64,000 nt of DNA from an uncultured Methanolobus sp. (GTDB lineage Archaea; Halobacteriota; Methanosarcinia; Methanosarcinales; Methanosarcinaceae): positions 2,187,562-2,251,561 of the forward strand of contig NZ_OY763421.1 in NCBI RefSeq assembly GCF_963667555.1. Direction: 5' to 3'. Under the pieces are notes generated by a model. The model made no database searches. It was not told the DNA's origin and worked only from the letters and a program-made list of their open reading frames with translations. The translations under genes were made by a program, and so were the position numbers. Positions 17,823-63,068 of the stretch are shown piece after piece (the first letter of the stretch is position 1; each line of letters opens with the position of its first letter).

Positions 17823-17921
17823 GCTGAACATACAATTCTATTTTTACATCTTTTTATTTTGGCTCTTAGAAATCCTGATTACATGAGTGATACGAACTTG
17901 CTTTTTTTAGTACCAAAGCCA

Positions 17922-18138
17922 AAAAAAACAAATTCAAGCTAAAACCAGAGTGACTATCCGCCGAAGGCGGCACATTCCAATGATTCCATACAGAAGATTG
18001 TTGCATTTACGCTGAGAATTCTATAAAAGGAATGCGAAGAAAGTACTCCACTACAACATGTCAATTATTTAGTACTACTTGATGGGAAAACGCCGGCTTC
18101 GCCGGACCCTTCGGGATAATTCAAGTAATTCATGAAAG
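17922..18138 (+). repeat. intergenic repeat element, copy A (full length)
   Basis: About 217 bases 3' of pheS, with no ORF. Two modules are shared with copy C: a 5' part whose hairpin is CCGCC-GAA-GGCGG (17958-17970) followed by CACATTCC, and a 3' part with CCGGC-TTC-GCCGG (18093-18105) and CCC-TTC-GGG (18107-18115), then TTCAAG..ATTCATGAAA. The intervening sequence also aligns to copy C (for example ACAGAAGAT.TTGCATTTA). The GC-rich hairpins stand in an AT-rich intergenic region. Boundaries are estimated from where the alignment to copy C fades. No target-site duplication was identified. The rest of 17823-18245 is AT-rich. Confidence 0.85.
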
Positions 18139-18245
18139 AAAATAAATCAATATGCATGACAAAAATTGTCTACTTTCTTTAAGTAATATTAGCAGGATTT
18201 CTACATACCCTTTATTTTGAATATTGCAAAGTGCAATGCAATAAG

Positions 18246-41718: not shown

Positions 41719-41793
41719 ATCAATTCGACTTTTTGGTTATGTAGAAATCCTGAGACTTAAGTACAAGCTGTTTGCAGAACATTTTGTTTTTTC

Positions 41794-41849
41794 TGATGGG
41801 AAAGCGCCGGCTTCGCAGGACCCTTCGGGATAACTCAGGTTATTCATGA
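41794..41849 (+). repeat. intergenic repeat element, copy B (3' module only)
   Basis: About 56 bases matching the 3' module of copy A with few changes: GATGGGAAA, CGCCGGCTTCGC, AGGACCCTTCGGGATAA and TTATTCATGA. The stem reads CCGGC-TTC-GCAGG, so one base pair of the GC hairpin is lost. The 5' module with CCGCCGAAGGCGG is absent. The gap 41683-42040 otherwise contains no gene. Confidence 0.8.
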
Positions 41850-42040
41850 CTTACGGGAAATCAGTTTAACCGCTCTTTGAGTTTCAGAGGTAAAAATACT
41901 ACAGAACAGACGTTTCAGAGTTATTTTTGATTGGTTTTGAGCTTTGCTGCTCTAAAAACACAATCATGCAGGCGTGTTGCCAATTCTAATTTAAGTTTTT
42001 AACACTACACATAGTAAATCATTCAATTAAAAAAAGTGTA

Positions 42041-54632: not shown

Positions 54633-55094
54633 TCACAATTTCCTCTTAGTTATAGGATGCTCATTCATCAACAGCCAGTAGAAACCAATATTTCTTATTG
54701 CTTCCACGAAGTTATCGAAATCCACGGGTTTTACGATGTAACTGTTAACTCCCAGTCGATAGCTTTCAACAATGTCACATTCTTCTTTTGATGAAGTGAG
54801 CATAACAACAGGGATCATTTTCTTCTCAGGATCACTCTTTATTTCCTTCAGAACCTCAAGACCATCCATCTTTGGGAGTTTCAGGTCAAGTAAAATAAGA
54901 CGAGGATTCATAGTTGGATCACGTTCTGCATATTCACCTTTGCAATACAGATAATCAAGTGCCTGTTCCCCATCACCCAGAACTACAATATTGTTTGCAA
55001 TATTGTTCTTTTTTAGTGCCCTGAGAGCTAGTTCCATATCATTTTGATTATCCTCTACAAGTACGATTTCCACTTCATTCTCCACACACATCAT
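54633..55094 (-). CDS. single-domain response regulator (Rcp1-like)
   Basis: 153 residues, a receiver only. The acidic pair is VEDN, the phospho-Asp is in [13 protein letters not shown], Thr in VMLTSS and the Lys in YIVKPVDF. No output domain. The short insertion after strand 2 ([14 protein letters not shown]) is typical of Rcp1-type regulators. Lies between the two kinases and overlaps the end of the giant kinase by 20 bases; likely acts by relaying phosphate between them. Confidence 0.93.
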
Positions 55095-58000
55095 CTCCCT
55101 GTTTTATAGGTAATGAAAAGTAAAACGTTGCACCGTTATCAAGTTCACTCTCTGCCCAGACATCTCCGCCATGTCTTCTTGCTATGCGCTGTACAATTGC
55201 AAGCCCCACACCAGTTCCGGGGAATTCTTTTTCACTATGCAAGCGCTGGAATATCCCAAAGAGTTTGTGAGAGTATTTAGGATTAAAGCCCACACCGTTA
55301 TCCTTTACATAGTAAACATTTGTCCCATCTTTAATATAAGCTCCGACCTCTACGACACCTTTGTCCCTTGTAGAGCTGTATTTGATGGCATTGGATAGCA
55401 GATTTACCCATAGCTGTTTTATAAGGGCAGGGTCCGCATAACTCTCCGGAAGATCAGAAACATTTAGCACAGTGCGATTTTTGTTTTCATCTGGAATCAG
55501 ATCATTGAAAACAGATCTTACCATAGCATCCATATTTATTAGGACGCAACTCATCTCATTTCTTCCAACCCTGGAAAGAGCCAGTAGATCTGTAATCAGT
55601 TTGTCCATCTTCTGGGTATTATCCCTTATTACATTGAGAAGACGCTTTCCTTCGTCATCCATAATTGGTTCGTAGTCCTCTGTAATTATTCTTGAGAAAC
55701 CGTCAATGGCTCTCAGCGGAGCACGCAGGTCGTGAGAAACAGAATATGTGAAGGCTTCGAGTTCCTTATTTGCATCTTCAAGTTGTTCTGTACGTTCAGC
55801 CACACGCTGCTCAAGCTCATCTGCATGCTGGCGTATCTGGTCGTTCAGACGTGAGTGGTGGATAGCTATAGAGAGTTGGGTTGCAACTTCTTCTACTATA
55901 GCCCGATGCTCTTCTGTAAAGAAATCAACTTCAAAAGAAGAGAGATTTAAGACTCCCATTAGTTCTCCTTCAATAATTAATGGTGCAATAAGAACCGAAC
56001 GAACATCTTCGTTTCTGAATTTTGCTATGAGTTCATGGTTGTATGAATCATAAGAATAGAGATCCGGAACAATCACAGATGAACCGGATTTTAATTTATC
56101 CAGAGTAGGAGAGGGCATTATATATTCATGAGTTCCAACTTTTAATTCAGAATCGTATTCAGAATCCATAGCCAAAACAACAGTATCGTTTCTTTCATAG
56201 TCCATTGCCCTCAAGCGCACAATTGGACATGAGATCAATTCACGCAGATTCTTCAATACACTATTAATTATATCTTCAGAAGATGTTGAAGAGATTATTC
56301 CTTTATCAATAGCATGAAGCATATTCAAACGTTCTGTATATTGAAGGATCTCTGCTTCGGCCTCTTTTCTATCAGTGATGTCAATAGAAGTTCCCATATA
56401 GATCTCATTGTCATCTGTATCTTTGAAGAGCTGGGAATACATCAAGGCTTCAAAAGTGGAACCATCTTTACGTAAAGCTGTAAACTCAAAGGTACATTCA
56501 CCATTTTCCCTCAACTTGTTAAAGATGTCAACAGCAATTTCCGGATATTTAAAATAAGAACTTGGAGAAGATTCCAATACATCATTAAGAGTATCATATC
56601 CCCACATCCTGATGTAAGCCTTGTTTGCATAAACAAATGTACCATCTGAAGAAATAATATTGAAACCATTCAGTGAATTTTCCAGAGCATTGCTTTTCAG
56701 TTCAATCTCTGCTTCGGCCAGTTTACGACTATCTATATCCTCTACCATTCCGATAAAGTACAAAGGTTCTCCATCTGAAGATTTCACTAAGGCGACGGTT
56801 ACATTAACCCATAGCATTCGTCCACCTTTGCAAATAAAACGTTTTTCTATGGAATAATCCCGTCTTTTTCCTGAAACCAGCTCTTCAACCAGAAGTGTTT
56901 CTTTTTCAATATCTTCCGGAGAGGTAAAATCTGCAAAATTCATTATTATGAGTTCTTCACAAGAATATCCTGAAATATCACAAAAACGCTGATTCATCTG
57001 GATAAAACCACCATCCAATGAAGATAGGATCACTCCCACAGCTGCCTGTTCGAATGTTGCACGGAACCTGCTTTCACTTTCATGAAGCGAGGAGAGCAGT
57101 TCATCACGCTCGTTAAGGGTTCTTGCAAGTTTTACATTACTATAACTTAATGTGGATATCAGGTTGGTCAGAAGCGCGTAATAGGTCATCAGAGAATCTA
57201 CGGATTCCCTGCTCCAGCGTGGAACCTTTTCAAGTGCTTCTAAGTACTGTTTTTCATCAAAGCCATATTTCTCTGCCTGAAGCCTGAATGTATCATAGGG
57301 TATTTCTTCGTCGTCGAGGAAAAACTGGCCAACGAACAAATTACCTATATGCACACCACCCAGCACGATAGGGGTTACCATATCCCACATATGATTCTTG
57401 CACTTGTAGAATTTGTACGTCCCTGGTTCTACACCCCGGGTCAGCTCAAGATCACTTTCAATACAATGCTTGCAGGTCTGCGGGTGAACCCGATGGAATT
57501 TCGTGCATATGTCCTGCCACCCAATGTCTACAAGGACATTACCCTTAAGATCAAGTATAGCCATTCCACCCATTTTGGTCAGCTGGTAAAATTCATCCAT
57601 TAGCTCTTGCAGGGCCTTGATGTCAACTATATCAGCAAGTTCCAGTTCTCCAAGATCTCCTTCCGGTTCCAGAATGGCGTTCAGCTTCTTTCTTACCCGA
57701 AGCTCACTTTCCCGTAACATGTCAGCAGCTAACTTACGTTCGGTTATATCCTGCATTGATCCGGTCAGCTTCACAACCTTGCCGTCTTTCACAACCGGAC
57801 GGCCAATGGTACGCACCCATTTATTAACACCGTCTGCAGATATCAGTTCCAGTTCAAGGTCATAAGGTTCTGCATTGTCAATCGCATTCTGGATAGCAGC
57901 CTTAATTTTCTCCTGTGATTCATAGACAAACAAACTCACTCCAATATCCTTATTTGTAGGAACACCAGGATCTAAACCGTGTATTTTTGCAACTTCAGGT

Positions 58001-60885
58001 GTCCATGTACCTTCTCCGGTTATGACATCGAACTCCCATCCTCCGATCTTTGCAATATCACCAACTTCATCCAGAAGCACCCTCTCTTTCTGGAGTTCTA
58101 ACTCTACTTTTTTAAGATGAGTGATGTCCTGTAAAAATCCAACTACTTTAACAATTTTCCCGTCTTCAAAAACAGGCTGTCCACCCGTCCTTACCCATTT
58201 ATGCACACCTTTTGCAGAAAAGAATTCAAGCTCAAGGTCATAAGCTTCTCCCTTTTCAACAGCATTCTGGAAAGCCTTCGAAATTATTTCACGTGATTGA
58301 GGCGGATAATATTCCAAACTCATATCTACACTTGCACCTGTATCAGGATCTAAACCGTGGATCATTGCAACTTCGCGAGTCCATGTAGACGTACCTGCCA
58401 GAACATCAAACTCCCAACCGCCAATTTTTGCCACGTCTCCCATTTCATTGAGTAAACGGTCCTGTTTAAGGAGTTCAACCTCGGTCTGTTTTCTATCAGT
58501 AATATCCTGGAAAGAACCAATCATTTTTGTAACTTTGTTATCAACAACAATTGGACGACCACTTGCACGAACCCATTTATGATTACCTTTTGCAGTTATG
58601 ATCTCAAGTTCAAGATCATATGGCTGCTCTTTTTCTATTGCATCCTGAACAGCTTTGCTGATAATTTCTTTAGAAGCTGGAGCGTAATAATCCAAACCTT
58701 TGTTCACATTTATAGTGCCACTAGGTTCCATATCATGGATTTTGAACACCTCGTTGGTCCATGTAACTTCACCGGAAGAAACATCAAGACTCCAGCCACC
58801 AATGCTTGCTATTTCACTTACTTCGTCCAGAAGGAATTTGCTTTTCTTTAGTTCATCTGCCATATTTTGGAGTTCGGTGATATTCCTGAATACAGTAAGT
58901 ATATACTTTTCAGAATCTGTTGTGATGATATCCCCGGAAATAATAACCGAGTGTTTTTCTCCGTATTTGGTGTAAATATCAGTCTCAAAATTACGTACAA
59001 CTCCATGGAAAGTAAGCTGATGAATATACTGTTTACATATATCCGGGTCAGACCAAATTGTAAGATCACATAGTGAAATACCAAGGACCTCGTCCATTCT
59101 GTAGCCTTTGTTCTTCAGGAAGCTTTGATTGACATTGATGATCCTCCCATCAAAAGACGTGAGCATAATGCTGTCAGGTACAGTATTAAATACCGTAGCA
59201 AACATTTCCTCTGATTTTATGAGTGCCGATTGTGTCATCTTGCGCTCGGTGATATCACGGGCAACAATAAGGATACTGGGTTTGAGATTTTCTCCCTGCA
59301 TCGGAACAGAACTTACTTCAACAGGGATCTCATTTCCATCTTTATCAACGAACACCGTTTCATAAAGATAGGTCTCCCCGTTATTTTCAACACGGTGGTC
59401 CCGGCGCTCATACATTTTTGCCTGTTCAGCAGGAGAAACGAAATGTGTCACATTTAGTGACAGAAGTTCTTTTTCCGAATAACCGCTAAATTCCACAGCA
59501 ATCTTATTTGCATAGAGCAACTTGCCCTGCAGATCATGGACTATTATGAAATCTCTTGCTGTGTCAGTAAGCAGCCTATATCTCCTCTCACTTTCTGTGA
59601 GAGCTTTTTCTACTTCCTTACTTTCAGTAATATCCCTCACGCTGGCAAGAATGTATTTCTTATTATCCAGCTCAATAGGACTGGCATTTATGTGAACCGG
59701 GAATTCCGCTCCGTTCCTGCGTAAGTGGGTCCATTGGAACTGTGCGCCAGTATCCGTAATTTCTTTCAGGGGAGATATTTCATCACGAAGATTGATCGGT
59801 GACAGGTCACGGACCTTCATATTCAAAAATTGATTACGGTCATACCCGTAAAGATCCTCTGCAACCTTATTCGCATCCAGTATCTTACCATTTTCATCGA
59901 ACAGGAAAAGCGAATCGGAGTTATTGTCAAATAGCTGACGATAGCGACTTTCAGACTCTTTCAGGGAAGCTGTACGATTTTTTACTTCCATTTTTAAGGA
60001 AACACTATAACTCAGCAAAAGATAGACAACCAGTGTAAGAAGAATAGCAATAATGATGCCGCCTTTTTGAAATACCAGCAAGGTGTCGGCCACGGATTCA
60101 TCCCATCCGCCTTTTGGGACAGCTACGAGTTCCCAGCTGCCTTCAGGAAGCGTCACTTGATATATCAAAGGGTTCATCTGGAATGTTTCCTCTGAACCAA
60201 ATATTATCTGTCCGGAATCATCCCGTAAAGCCATATGTATAGTTTCATCTGCAGTGGTCAAACCTGATGAGCTCAGTAGCGGTGGTACGTCAATGACCAT
60301 TGAAACAACACCCCATAAGGAATCATTAATGTAGACCGGTTGCCGGGCAGCCATACCAAGACCGCCGCGCTGCATCTCATATGGGCCTGTGATCACCGGT
60401 TCCCTGGTTTGAATTGCATTTAGCAGATCCGCGCGAACGATAGGACGCTCATCATTGATAAGATCTTCAAGAGTGCGTTCAGCTACAAGTTCATTGTCTT
60501 CAAGGGGATAAACATAGGTTTCTGAAAAATTAGTGTAGATCTCTATGGAGCGCAGAGAGGGCGAACCTGCGTATAAACCAAAGGCAAATGATTCAAAATG
60601 TGTATCCAATGCAGTTTTTGTAGGGTTAGCCTTTGCAAAAGCATCAAGACCGTCCAGATGAGACAAAATATTGTTTATGCGATTTTCCAGAGAATTTCCA
60701 TTGGACGATAATTGCGCATTGACCTCGACCTGCTTGTTAAGTATCAGATTATCTTCATATATAGCGCAAGCCTGCCATAGTACAAACAATAAAATAACCA
60801 AGGTTAATGCCGCACCTAACAATGCTATGTAACCCTGCCCCCTGAGTGACAGAGTACCTGAGGTCCTTTCAGACCCTTTGGACAT
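55075..60885 (-). CDS. giant membrane histidine kinase: CHASE-like sensor, eight PAS, PocR, GAF, HisKA, HATPase
   Basis: 1936 residues. An N-terminal membrane helix (about 15-38) and another (about 275-297) enclose an extracellular CHASE-like sensor with [22 protein letters not shown]. Then PAS domains at about 310-425, 435-550, 558-675, 685-800, 805-925, 930-1050; a PocR domain (about 1070-1230) with CKHCIESD and CKNHMWD, a candidate ligand or metal site; two PAS (1275-1395, 1405-1525); GAF (1530-1690); HisKA with [16 protein letters not shown] (about 1710); HATPase to the end. PAS 4-6 are close tandem copies (IGGW.FDV...TWT.EV..IH). First gene of the operon. Confidence 0.93.
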
Positions 60886-61191: not shown

Positions 61192-61265
61192 GCCGAGATG
61201 ACAGAGTGGCTAATGTGACCGCCTGCAGAGCGGTTTTTCCGGGAGTTCGAATCTCTCTCTCGGCA
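61192..61265 (+). tRNA. tRNA-Cys (anticodon GCA) with A73
   Basis: Cloverleaf by eye: acceptor GCCGAGA/TCTCGGC, TG at 8-9, a D arm closed by ACA/TGT with AGTGGCTA loop, anticodon stem ACCGC/GCGGT around CTGCAGA (GCA), a variable loop of six bases, T arm GGGAG-TTCGAAT-CTCTC. The discriminator is A and no CCA is encoded. tRNA-Cys normally has U73, a main recognition base for CysRS. The cysS start lies only 22 bases after the tRNA, so both are probably made as one transcript and the tRNA must be cut out. Confidence 0.85.
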
Positions 61266-61287: not shown

Positions 61288-62724
61288 GTGGTGCTCAGAG
61301 TTTACAATACATTGACAAGGGAAACCGAGGATTTTGTGCCCCTGCGGAACAACAAAGTAAATATGTACGTTTGCGGCCCCACGGTTTACGACCACTGCCA
61401 TCTGGGACACGCCAGAAGTTACGTTTCTTTTGATGTTATCAGACGCTACCTGATATACCGTGGATATGATGTGAACTATGTATCCAATATCACGGATGTT
61501 GATGACAAGGTGATAGACAGGGCAAAGGAAAGCGGAGAGGAAACCTTTGAACTATCAAAAAAGTTCACCGCATCTTTTGAAGAGGACATGCAGACTCTTG
61601 GAGTTATGGAACCTGACACCCGTCCTAAAGTTACAGAGCATATACAGGACATAATCGATACCGTTGCCCAGCTAATAGAAAATGGTTCAGCATACGCAAC
61701 CCCGAAAGAAAACGTGTACTATGACCTTGAAAAGTCTGCGGATAGAATTGGAATACTGAGCCACCAGACAGTTGAAGGCTTGATGGAAGGTTCAGGTTGT
61801 CGAATTGATGTTGAGGATGACAAGAGATTCCAGCTTGACTTTGTGCTCTGGAAAAGTTCTCCTGAAAACGAACCCGGATGGGACAGTCCCTGGGGCAGAG
61901 GAAGACCGGGATGGCATATTGAATGTACTGTTATGTCAATGAAATACTGCTCACAGCAACTGGACATCCACGGCGGAGGAATGGATCTCATATTCCCGCA
62001 TCATGAAGCTGAGATACACCAATCGGAAAGTTGCACAGGAATGCATCCTTTCAGCAAGTACTGGATGCACAATGGTTTTCTGACAATCGACAAGGAGAAG
62101 ATGTCAAAATCCCTTGGAAACTTCTTTACCATAAAGGAAGTGCTTGCTAAATTCCCTCCCGGAACTATCAGGTTCTTCATAGTTTATACTCACTACAGAA
62201 GTACCATTGACTTCAGCGAGGATGTTCTGGTAGAAGCAGGAAGAGCAAGAAAGCGATTACTGAACACCATCTCAAACGTGAAACATGCTGTATCTGAAGC
62301 ACCGGACAGCGACAATGACTGCGGCCTTTCAGAACTCATAGATGAAACCAGAACCGCATATATGGAGTCAATGGATGATGATTTCAACACCAGAGAAGCA
62401 ATTGGCAATCTTTTTGTGTTCAGTCGCAAGGTCAATTCCGTGTTGGCAAATGAAAAACCGGGAATATTAGCACTTGAAAATGTTCTTGCTTTCTATTCAG
62501 AGATTAACGAAGTTCTCGGTATCTTTGAAGATGACGGGAGTTCCGGGTCAGAGGAACTCAGCAACGGAATATCAGATGACGATATCAATGAACTGATAGA
62601 ACTCAGGGACAAAGCACGTGCTGAAAAAGACTGGGCAAAAGCCGATGCCATACGTGATGAACTGAAGGAGAAAGGTATCATCATCGAGGATGGAAAAGAT
62701 GGTGTTCGGTGGAGAAGAGAGTAA
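61288..62724 (+). CDS. cysS: cysteine--tRNA ligase
   Basis: 478 residues from the GTG at 61288, six bases after AGGTG; GTGs at 61279 and 61291 are alternatives. Class I synthetase: zinc-binding Cys and HIGH region in VYVCGPTVYDHCHLGHARS, further zinc ligands CTVMS and HHEAEIHQSE, and KMSKSLGN (KMSKS) near residue 270. It charges tRNA-Cys directly. Many methanogens use instead SepRS/SepCysS; Methanosarcina species have both. Repeat copy C follows 11 bases after its stop. Confidence 0.95.
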   Translation: MVLRVYNTLTRETEDFVPLRNNKVNMYVCGPTVYDHCHLGHARSYVSFDVIRRYLIYRGYDVNYVSNITDVDDKVIDRAKESGEETFELSKKFTASFEEDMQTLGVMEPDTRPKVTEHIQDIIDTVAQLIENGSAYATPKENVYYDLEKSADRIGILSHQTVEGLMEGSGCRIDVEDDKRFQLDFVLWKSSPENEPGWDSPWGRGRPGWHIECTVMSMKYCSQQLDIHGGGMDLIFPHHEAEIHQSESCTGMHPFSKYWMHNGFLTIDKEKMSKSLGNFFTIKEVLAKFPPGTIRFFIVYTHYRSTIDFSEDVLVEAGRARKRLLNTISNVKHAVSEAPDSDNDCGLSELIDETRTAYMESMDDDFNTREAIGNLFVFSRKVNSVLANEKPGILALENVLAFYSEINEVLGIFEDDGSSGSEELSNGISDDDINELIELRDKARAEKDWAKADAIRDELKEKGIIIEDGKDGVRWRRE

Positions 62725-62735
62725 GCTCATCTATA

Positions 62736-62949
62736 TTTCATGAATAACTTGAGTGAAAACGAAGGATTCGGCGAAGCCGGCGTTTTCCAAACAAATGAAA
62801 CGAAATCATTTTCATAGTACTCTGTGATACTTTCTCCGCAGGCCTTCTGTGATTTCTCGGTATAAATGCAATGATCTTCTGTACAGGATTATAGGAATGT
62901 GCCGCCTTCGGCGGATGTTTGCTCTGTTTTTATTTGCAGATTGTTTTTG
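62736..62949 (-). repeat. intergenic repeat element, copy C (full length, inverted)
   Basis: About 214 bases, reverse complement orientation compared with copy A, starting 11 bases after the cysS stop. Read on the minus strand it has CCGCC-GAA-GGCGG (plus 62902-62914), CACATTCC, ACAGAAGATCATTGCATTTA, later GGAAAACGCCGGCTTCGCCG and TCAAGTTATTCATGAAA. The CCCTTCGGG of copy A is TCCTTCGTT here. Its outer part ACAAAAACAA...AAACAGAGCAAAC also aligns with copy A. No ORF. Confidence 0.85.
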
Positions 62950-63068
62950 TGGAGATTATGGAAATGAAAAAGAGCCAAGTATATGCCATTCATTAAGCAG
63001 GAAAACAAGATTTTTACAAAGTACAAAATAAGTGGTGGTTTGCACCACCTTTTCTTAAGTATCAGATA

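Follow-up and report, generated by a model that had tools for sequence, protein, structure and literature searches.

According to a 2024 review no mobile elements of bacteria and archaea have been studied less than MITEs (PMC10969869), and another paper states of its MITEs in general that the inverted repeats (IRs) alone resemble the IS (PMC3852290). The closest described systems are the IS5-family MITEs of the Methanosarcinaceae: Table 4 of the latter source gives an ISMbu10-related element of 185 bp in M. burtonii and an ISMba19-related one of 147 bp in M. barkeri, together with an ISMma12-related element of 140 bp and an ISMac15-related one of 252 bp in M. acetivorans, and these four are listed with 5-24 copies, IRs of 15-17 bp and duplications of 0 or 3 bp (PMC3852290). 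Among the matches listed from the open-access literature, judged by titles and the starts of abstracts, no Methanolobus MITE or repeat of such kind was found, which is weak evidence of absence.

The window analysed here is a stretch of 64,000 nucleotides from an uncultured Methanolobus sp. (C1:2187562-2251561 of the genome). In this window the initial annotation had recognized an intergenic repeat of roughly 215 bp (17922-18138), without an ORF, one copy of which follows pheS and a second, inverted one cysS. Both copies are real and align along their length as described, and the ORFs that overlap copy 1 reach 46 aa at most; the extent and the number of the copies had to be corrected. In an alignment of the copies conserved sequence reached past the noted borders, the noted stretch being the core of a wider element, and a third, partial copy had been overlooked; the window holds one full copy, one truncated copy and one with an internal deletion (Table 1). 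The outer ends of the element are inverted repeats (TIRs) of 17-18 bp, GGCTCTGTAGAAATCCTG, and copy 1 is flanked on both sides by a perfect 8-bp target duplication. With up to two mismatches allowed, the motif CCGCCGAAGGCGG is found 4 times in the window, where 0.24 occurrences would be expected.

Table 1. Copies of the element in the window and parts of copy 1
Feature	Position	Strand	Evidence
MITE copy 1, full length, 350 bp	17861..18210	+	profile match 275.9 bits, model 2-339 of 341; ends and 8-bp duplication
Left target duplication of copy 1, TTTATTTT	17853..17860	.	8 of 8
Left TIR of copy 1, GGCTCT-TAGAAATCCTG, one base deleted	17861..17877	+	sequence and alignment
Hairpin 1, CCGCC-GAA-GGCGG	17958..17970	+	
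Box CACATTCC adjoining hairpin 1, conserved in genus g4 too	17971..17978	+	
Hairpin 2, CCGGC-TTC-GCCGG	18093..18105	+	
Hairpin 3, CCC-TTC-GGG	18107..18115	+	
Right TIR of copy 1, GGGTATGTAGAAATCCTG on the minus strand	18193..18210	-	pattern match, 2 mismatches
Right target duplication of copy 1, TTTATTTT	18211..18218	.	8 of 8; empty sites of relatives: single T-rich stretch
MITE copy 3, about 174 bp, internal deletion	41735..41908	+	profile match 97.0 bits, model 168-340; left TIR 2 mismatches
MITE copy 2, truncated, without right TIR	62720..63021	-	profile match 203.7 bits, model 4-302 of 341

Copy 1 sits between pheS (PF01409) and a convergent DUF362/4Fe-4S gene, and copy 2 between cysS (PF01406) and a convergent SLAC1-type gene; the terminal bases of copy 2 at 62720, which overlap the cysS stop, may be a chance match. 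Copy 3, which retains the left TIR, hairpins 2 and 3 and a degenerate right TIR, is preceded by a CobB/CobQ-type gene and followed by a FeoA gene. Elsewhere in the window a single reading frame of 1936 aa, the longest ORF listed there, occupies 55075-60885 on the minus strand, and a tRNA at 61192-61265, directly before cysS, is the sole feature of the window to reach an Rfam gathering score.

The initial annotation had proposed to count the copies genome-wide and to inspect their termini and target duplications, and all three were found. Searching the 3.29-Mb genome with the core yielded 40 matches (the best 40 of 169 first-look candidates), extending down to E 1e-27 and far above chance. A profile built in one orientation gave 76 non-overlapping matches in 253,799 bases of the own genome, 70 of them scoring at least 100 bits, and 10 further places lie outside those bases, which amounts to at least 86 matches genome-wide, 80 of them strong. 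The TIR pattern (up to 3 mismatches) was detected at 127 sites of the own genome (70 + 57), the reversed control at 1; the pairs, which close the element at both ends, stand mostly about 310-360 bp apart, and 43 full copies of the own genome measure 291-430 bp. An iterated profile search had given the impression that nearly all copies match on both strands because it mixed orientations: the one-orientation model gave weak reverse matches (at most 46 bits among the 20 overlapping matches listed), and a simple local alignment between the consensus and its own reverse complement recovered the TIR alone. No match to the element was obtained in the plasmid records searched. The copies are diverged, with a median pairwise identity of 0.708 and 0.939 for the closest pair (43 own copies); since this holds for most of them, and since the partner insertion sequence of the own genome (below) has imperfect TIRs and no clear duplication, the present activity of the family is uncertain.

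The target duplications were evaluated on 76 full copies, 44 from the own genome and 32 from seven relatives. Their length peaks at 8 bp, where the mean identity is 0.676 compared with 0.366 after shuffling (maximum of 500 shuffles 0.438), the excess being much weaker at lengths of 5-7 and 9; at least 7 of 8 positions agree in 26 of the 76 copies, while 0.8 are expected. The target is AT-rich (0.80 vs 0.70 in the flanks) and symmetrical, roughly gAAATTTc as judged from 26 copies.

The positions of copies 1 and 2 are not shared by the relatives compared. After pheS the element is absent in all 26 other genomes of the genus, and five aligned relatives show a clean empty site, a single T-rich stretch. 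Directly after cysS it is absent in 24/24 genomes with a cysS orthologue (a true cysS match was not obtained for G080 and G101), one of which has a copy about 0.9-1.1 kb further; among six relatives aligned at this position L197 alone looked syntenic, and it is without the element. For one cysS orthologue the downstream stretch compared extended over just 184 bp, and for one pheS orthologue over 762 bp. The two copies do adjoin aminoacyl-tRNA synthetase genes, as had been noted, but the association is coincidental, since other genomes of the genus lack the element there.

A transposase partner carries the same ends. The TIR with up to one mismatch was present in 70 of 100 family genomes sampled, the control in none among the matches listed. 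TIR pairs that are identical over 17 bases enclose a DDE transposase gene in two insertion sequences, L112 of 998 bp and L113 of 1313 bp, and both have perfect 8-bp duplications (AATTTTGT and CATTTTTC, respectively); a stop interrupts the L112 gene, and the L113 gene is cut short at its end. In a third insertion sequence (L096, 1034 bp) the transposase is in one frame, the right TIR has two mismatches and no clear duplication was seen. The transposases of L096 and L113 belong to the IS5 family, matching NF033579 (IS5_2) with 211.6 and 215.1 bits at a cut-off of 140, and PF01609 as well. In the own genome a single relative of the L096 protein lies at C1:818524-819524, with an open frame of 324 aa and 66% identity; its family placement rests on the comparison with L096, one stop falls within the aligned part, at the C-terminal end of the translation, and the insertion sequence has two mismatches in each TIR and no evident duplication. 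Between the MITE and this insertion sequence the similarity is confined to about 17 bp at either end, with no further significant match. Within the IS5 family the closest group is the ISH1 group, which has 8-bp duplications. An IS6/IS240-type partner, suggested by the start of the TIR, was discarded: PF13610 gave one sub-cut-off match in the genome. In other genera pairs of the same TIR stand 132 bp apart (L114, L118, L122), apparently another, shorter MITE family.

On the basis of the TIRs, the 8-bp duplications, the empty site and the matching IS5 partner, it can be stated with a probability of about 0.93 that the repeat is a Methanolobus MITE family of about 330-350 bp with IS5-type ends; the MITE-like element that the initial annotation had offered as one of two alternatives is borne out, and the family is neither confined to two copies nor lacking conserved ends. 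The nature of the mobile part is settled by its anatomy, an IS5-type MITE being of a kind already known in Methanosarcinaceae (PMC3852290). An IS5 transposase acting in trans would cut at the TIRs of the MITE, and the copies would insert into AT-rich sites of the form gAAATTTc. They would persist mainly downstream of genes, since insertions into promoter regions would be selected against. In agreement with such a distribution, the own copies located between two ORFs (n=60) occupy 20 convergent, 28 tandem and 12 divergent gaps, compared with 6, 29 and 22, respectively, among the remaining gaps of 60 bp or more in the same regions (n=57; Fisher 0.0037 for convergent, on a small background); the count left out 6/76 matches below 100 bits and then 10/70 copies that are not between two ORFs. 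The bias for convergent gaps can be explained by selection against promoter insertions alone.

The three GC-rich hairpins inside the element are more strongly conserved than its TIRs. Over 72 aligned full copies (the 76 minus 4 longer than 375 bp) the hairpin columns are conserved at 0.93-0.97, the TIRs at 0.89 and the rest at 0.72, and the copies of the own genome alone give 0.96-0.97, 0.88-0.89 and 0.71-0.72. This conservation is not a product of the core-based search, since 21 own copies that were recruited by the TIR alone show the same values (0.958, 0.881 and 0.707). Outside the hairpins, G/C columns show no particular conservation (0.686 vs 0.722 for A/T).

Two readings of the hairpins have to be weighed in the first place. 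They may be kept for something beyond transposition; the host would most likely use them as a structure at the 3' end of genes, marking the transcript end or insulating convergent genes, or as a DNA hairpin, and we consider a host use plausible, at best an even chance. A role at gene 3' ends is the best guess because the copies gather there, and selection against promoter insertions explains this position too. Alternatively, the element may be an ordinary MITE with no role in the host, in which the hairpins aid its own spread, for example as a structure that assists transposition, or in which the similarity search favours intact hairpins; this is a substantial possibility that falls a little short of an even chance. 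It gains from the fact that hairpin conservation is equally strong among full copies with both TIRs, and from the statement in PMC3852290 that archaeal MITEs usually share just the IRs with their IS. What speaks against it is that the IS5 partner has none of the three hairpins, from which it would follow that the IS5 transposase does not need them.

More direct information comes from copies that have decayed at the same site in different species. Twelve insertion sites are each found in between two and six species and match on both flanks (grouped from 39 such pairs, 11 one-flank pairs being left out). Over these sites 64/409 hairpin columns are variable, compared with 50/230 in the boxes beside them, 99/343 in the TIRs, 789/2696 in the rest and 244/909 outside the consensus, columns gapped in any orthologue (11 hairpin, 38 TIR, 248 rest) having been excluded, in the per-site test as well. 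The variability of the hairpins is lower than that of the rest (p = 2e-9), of the TIRs (1e-5) and of the outside sequence (6e-6), with the reservation that the 12 sites come from copies found by similarity, which biases them towards intact hairpins; the TIRs and the rest vary alike (p = 0.90), the columns of lost TIRs being aligned to flanking sequence. That the hairpins change about half as fast, while the TIRs decay like the remaining element, argues against an ordinary MITE without a host role. The hairpins are less variable than the rest at all 12 sites, barely so at the L288 site (17/35 vs 114/230), and when the three hairpin blocks were shifted circularly, 3 of 310 positions gave a value as low, the lowest again falling on the hairpin columns.

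One of the 12 sites was retrieved through the neighbouring, convergent 4Fe-4S protein gene, where 9 of 26 loci, the own genome included, carry the core without TIRs; among the others, L352 and L354 hold other element arrangements and 15 are without a convincing match. In the nine species the hairpins vary in 10/35 columns compared with 116/172 in the rest of the core (p = 3.8e-5, columns with more than 2 gaps excluded), which again goes against the absence of a host role. The sequence outside the core at this site, partly coding, varies in 35/78 columns, and compared with it the hairpins are not clearly slower (p = 0.15), a result that favours the ordinary MITE. Without the gene-located site the remaining eleven give 55/374 for the hairpins vs 694/2508 for the rest (p = 3e-8). 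A second gene-located site, also among the 12, is common to 4 of 27 loci.

Hairpin 1 is also found outside the window's genome. An exact-match scan of named genomes with CCGCCGAAGGCGGCACATTCC, which may omit records very near the window's genome, gave 12 stretches. Ten of them belong to Methanolobus (M. vulcani, M. profundi, M. bombayensis, M. psychrotolerans); a Methanosarcinaceae MAG and a Clostridiales MAG contribute one each. In the latter contig (L155, 4939-4959) exact hairpin 1 and box are present; misbinning, chance or a transferred copy are possible. In a family search of 111 genomes, in which the best candidates (up to 6 each) were scored, at least 33 genomes matched, in at least 6 of 14 genera; the copy numbers in relatives are lower bounds, the best 26 or 6 candidates at most having been scored per genome. 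Several copies (L265, L266, L268, L409) have the hairpin modules in reverse order, 2-3 before 1, and seem to be rearranged; L265 is still framed by degenerate TIRs.

Five genomes of the related genus g4 match in hairpin 1, the CACATTCC box and their surroundings, and the TIR with up to one mismatch gave no match in the seven members of this genus sampled. The hairpin-1 unit appears to be older than its IS5 ends, since it is found without them in this related genus. The strict hairpin-1 motif is present in 12 of 13 g4 stretches (L395-L407), and in 7 it forms an inverted pair (L397, L399, L400, L402, L404, L406, L407). In the orthologous pair L397/L404 the hairpin and box columns have 1/42 changes, located in the loop, vs 158/959 elsewhere (p = 0.009), which is difficult to reconcile with hairpins that serve the spread of the MITE alone. 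In L403 a short tandem repeat (505-757), with units like AAACTCACAGTCT, starts close beside the hairpin-1 unit. Over 118 distinct contexts, taken as CACATTCC after a stem with at least 4 of 5 pairs and with each orthologous copy counted separately, 103 have a GNA loop (GAA 84, GCA 16, GTA 2, GGA 1), 11 an AAA loop and 4 another. GNA loops closed by C-G form very stable DNA hairpins.

We read this as a MITE that carries an older, retained hairpin unit, whose function would lie outside transposition. In its fullest form, which we put forward tentatively as possible rather than probable, the GNA-loop hairpin together with the CACATTCC box would be an old functional unit of the Methanosarcinaceae, either a signal or a structure located at the 3' ends of genes or the site of a DNA-binding protein, carried by differing transposon ends across genera and selectively kept where it lands well: a mobile element would thereby spread a useful archaeal hairpin.

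A structured RNA family, that is an sRNA or a cis-regulatory RNA spread by transposition, was the other alternative of the initial annotation and is improbable. The folds of copy 1 are better than those of shuffled sequences on the minus strand (z -4.2, 0 of 100 as good) and on the plus strand (z -2.6, 1 of 100 as good), but the pairing of the TIRs contributes to both, and the calculated folding energy of hairpins 1 and 2 is -4.6 kcal/mol on either strand, therefore the strands are not told apart by it. At the element Rfam gave a best match of E 0.76, below gathering score, and the positions of both window sites are unshared with relatives. The covariation that the initial annotation had proposed to look for in the stems was not found: over 72 copies hairpins 1 and 2 show no change on both sides of a pair and hairpin 3 one cell of this kind, the stems hardly varying and being too invariant to exclude an RNA. 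Among single changes in the stems of hairpins 1 and 2, 13 cells retain a wobble pair and 25 lose the pairing; the sole hints of covariation are two distinct CCACC/GGTGG contexts and the exchange of C-G for G-C between hairpins 1 and 2.

Least probable is a REP/BIME-type repeat moved by a Y1 (RAYT or IS200/IS605) transposase that gained its IS5 ends later, since the inverted pairs of hairpin 1 and box without IS5 TIR in g4, which do resemble paired REPs, are outweighed by the failure to find Y1 transposase genes in 6 of 9 genomes searched, one of which (G082) has at least 30 element matches, by the lack of the hairpins at the six Y1 loci over cut-off in the other three (L415-L418, L420, L421), by the assignment of the hairpins near a sub-cut-off Y1 hit (L419) to neighbouring MITEs, and by the consensus before hairpin 1, which reads ACCAT and not GTAG, the GT(A/G)G head being missing.

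It should be emphasized that the family offers insertions that are common to several species, in a genus with named, isolated strains. Because the shared insertions come with TIRs as a built-in yardstick of unconstrained decay, the domestication of a mobile hairpin is directly testable. Should the hairpins terminate transcripts or insulate convergent genes, they would be an added source of gene-end signals in methanogens.

Compared with the known systems, the element stands close to the 8-bp-duplication group of the IS5 family through its partner, whose transposase matches NF033579 and PF01609 and whose TIRs and duplications are as in the MITE, and it differs from the IS5 family proper in having no transposase and in sharing no more than about 17 bp at each end. 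With the IS5-family MITEs of Methanosarcinaceae, as PMC3852290 describes them, it shares the non-coding repeat, the IRs and the IS5 partner; from the four listed there it differs, by description, in the Methanolobus host, the length of about 330-350 bp, the at least 86 matches, the clear 8-bp duplications and the three conserved GC-rich hairpins. Short GC-rich hairpins in mostly intergenic positions, and in g4 their inverted pairs, recall REP/BIME and RAYT as presented in PMC2817692, but no associated Y1 transposase was found in the genomes searched, the GTAG head is absent, and in Methanolobus IS5 TIRs frame the element. SPRITE of S. pneumoniae, as PMC10969869 describes it, is likewise an intergenic repeat with a terminator-like structure; compared by description with SPRITE, BOX and RUP of that species, the present family lives in another domain, and here the retention after insertion was tested. 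What is new in this family is the retained hairpins and the occurrence of hairpin 1 without these TIRs in another genus.
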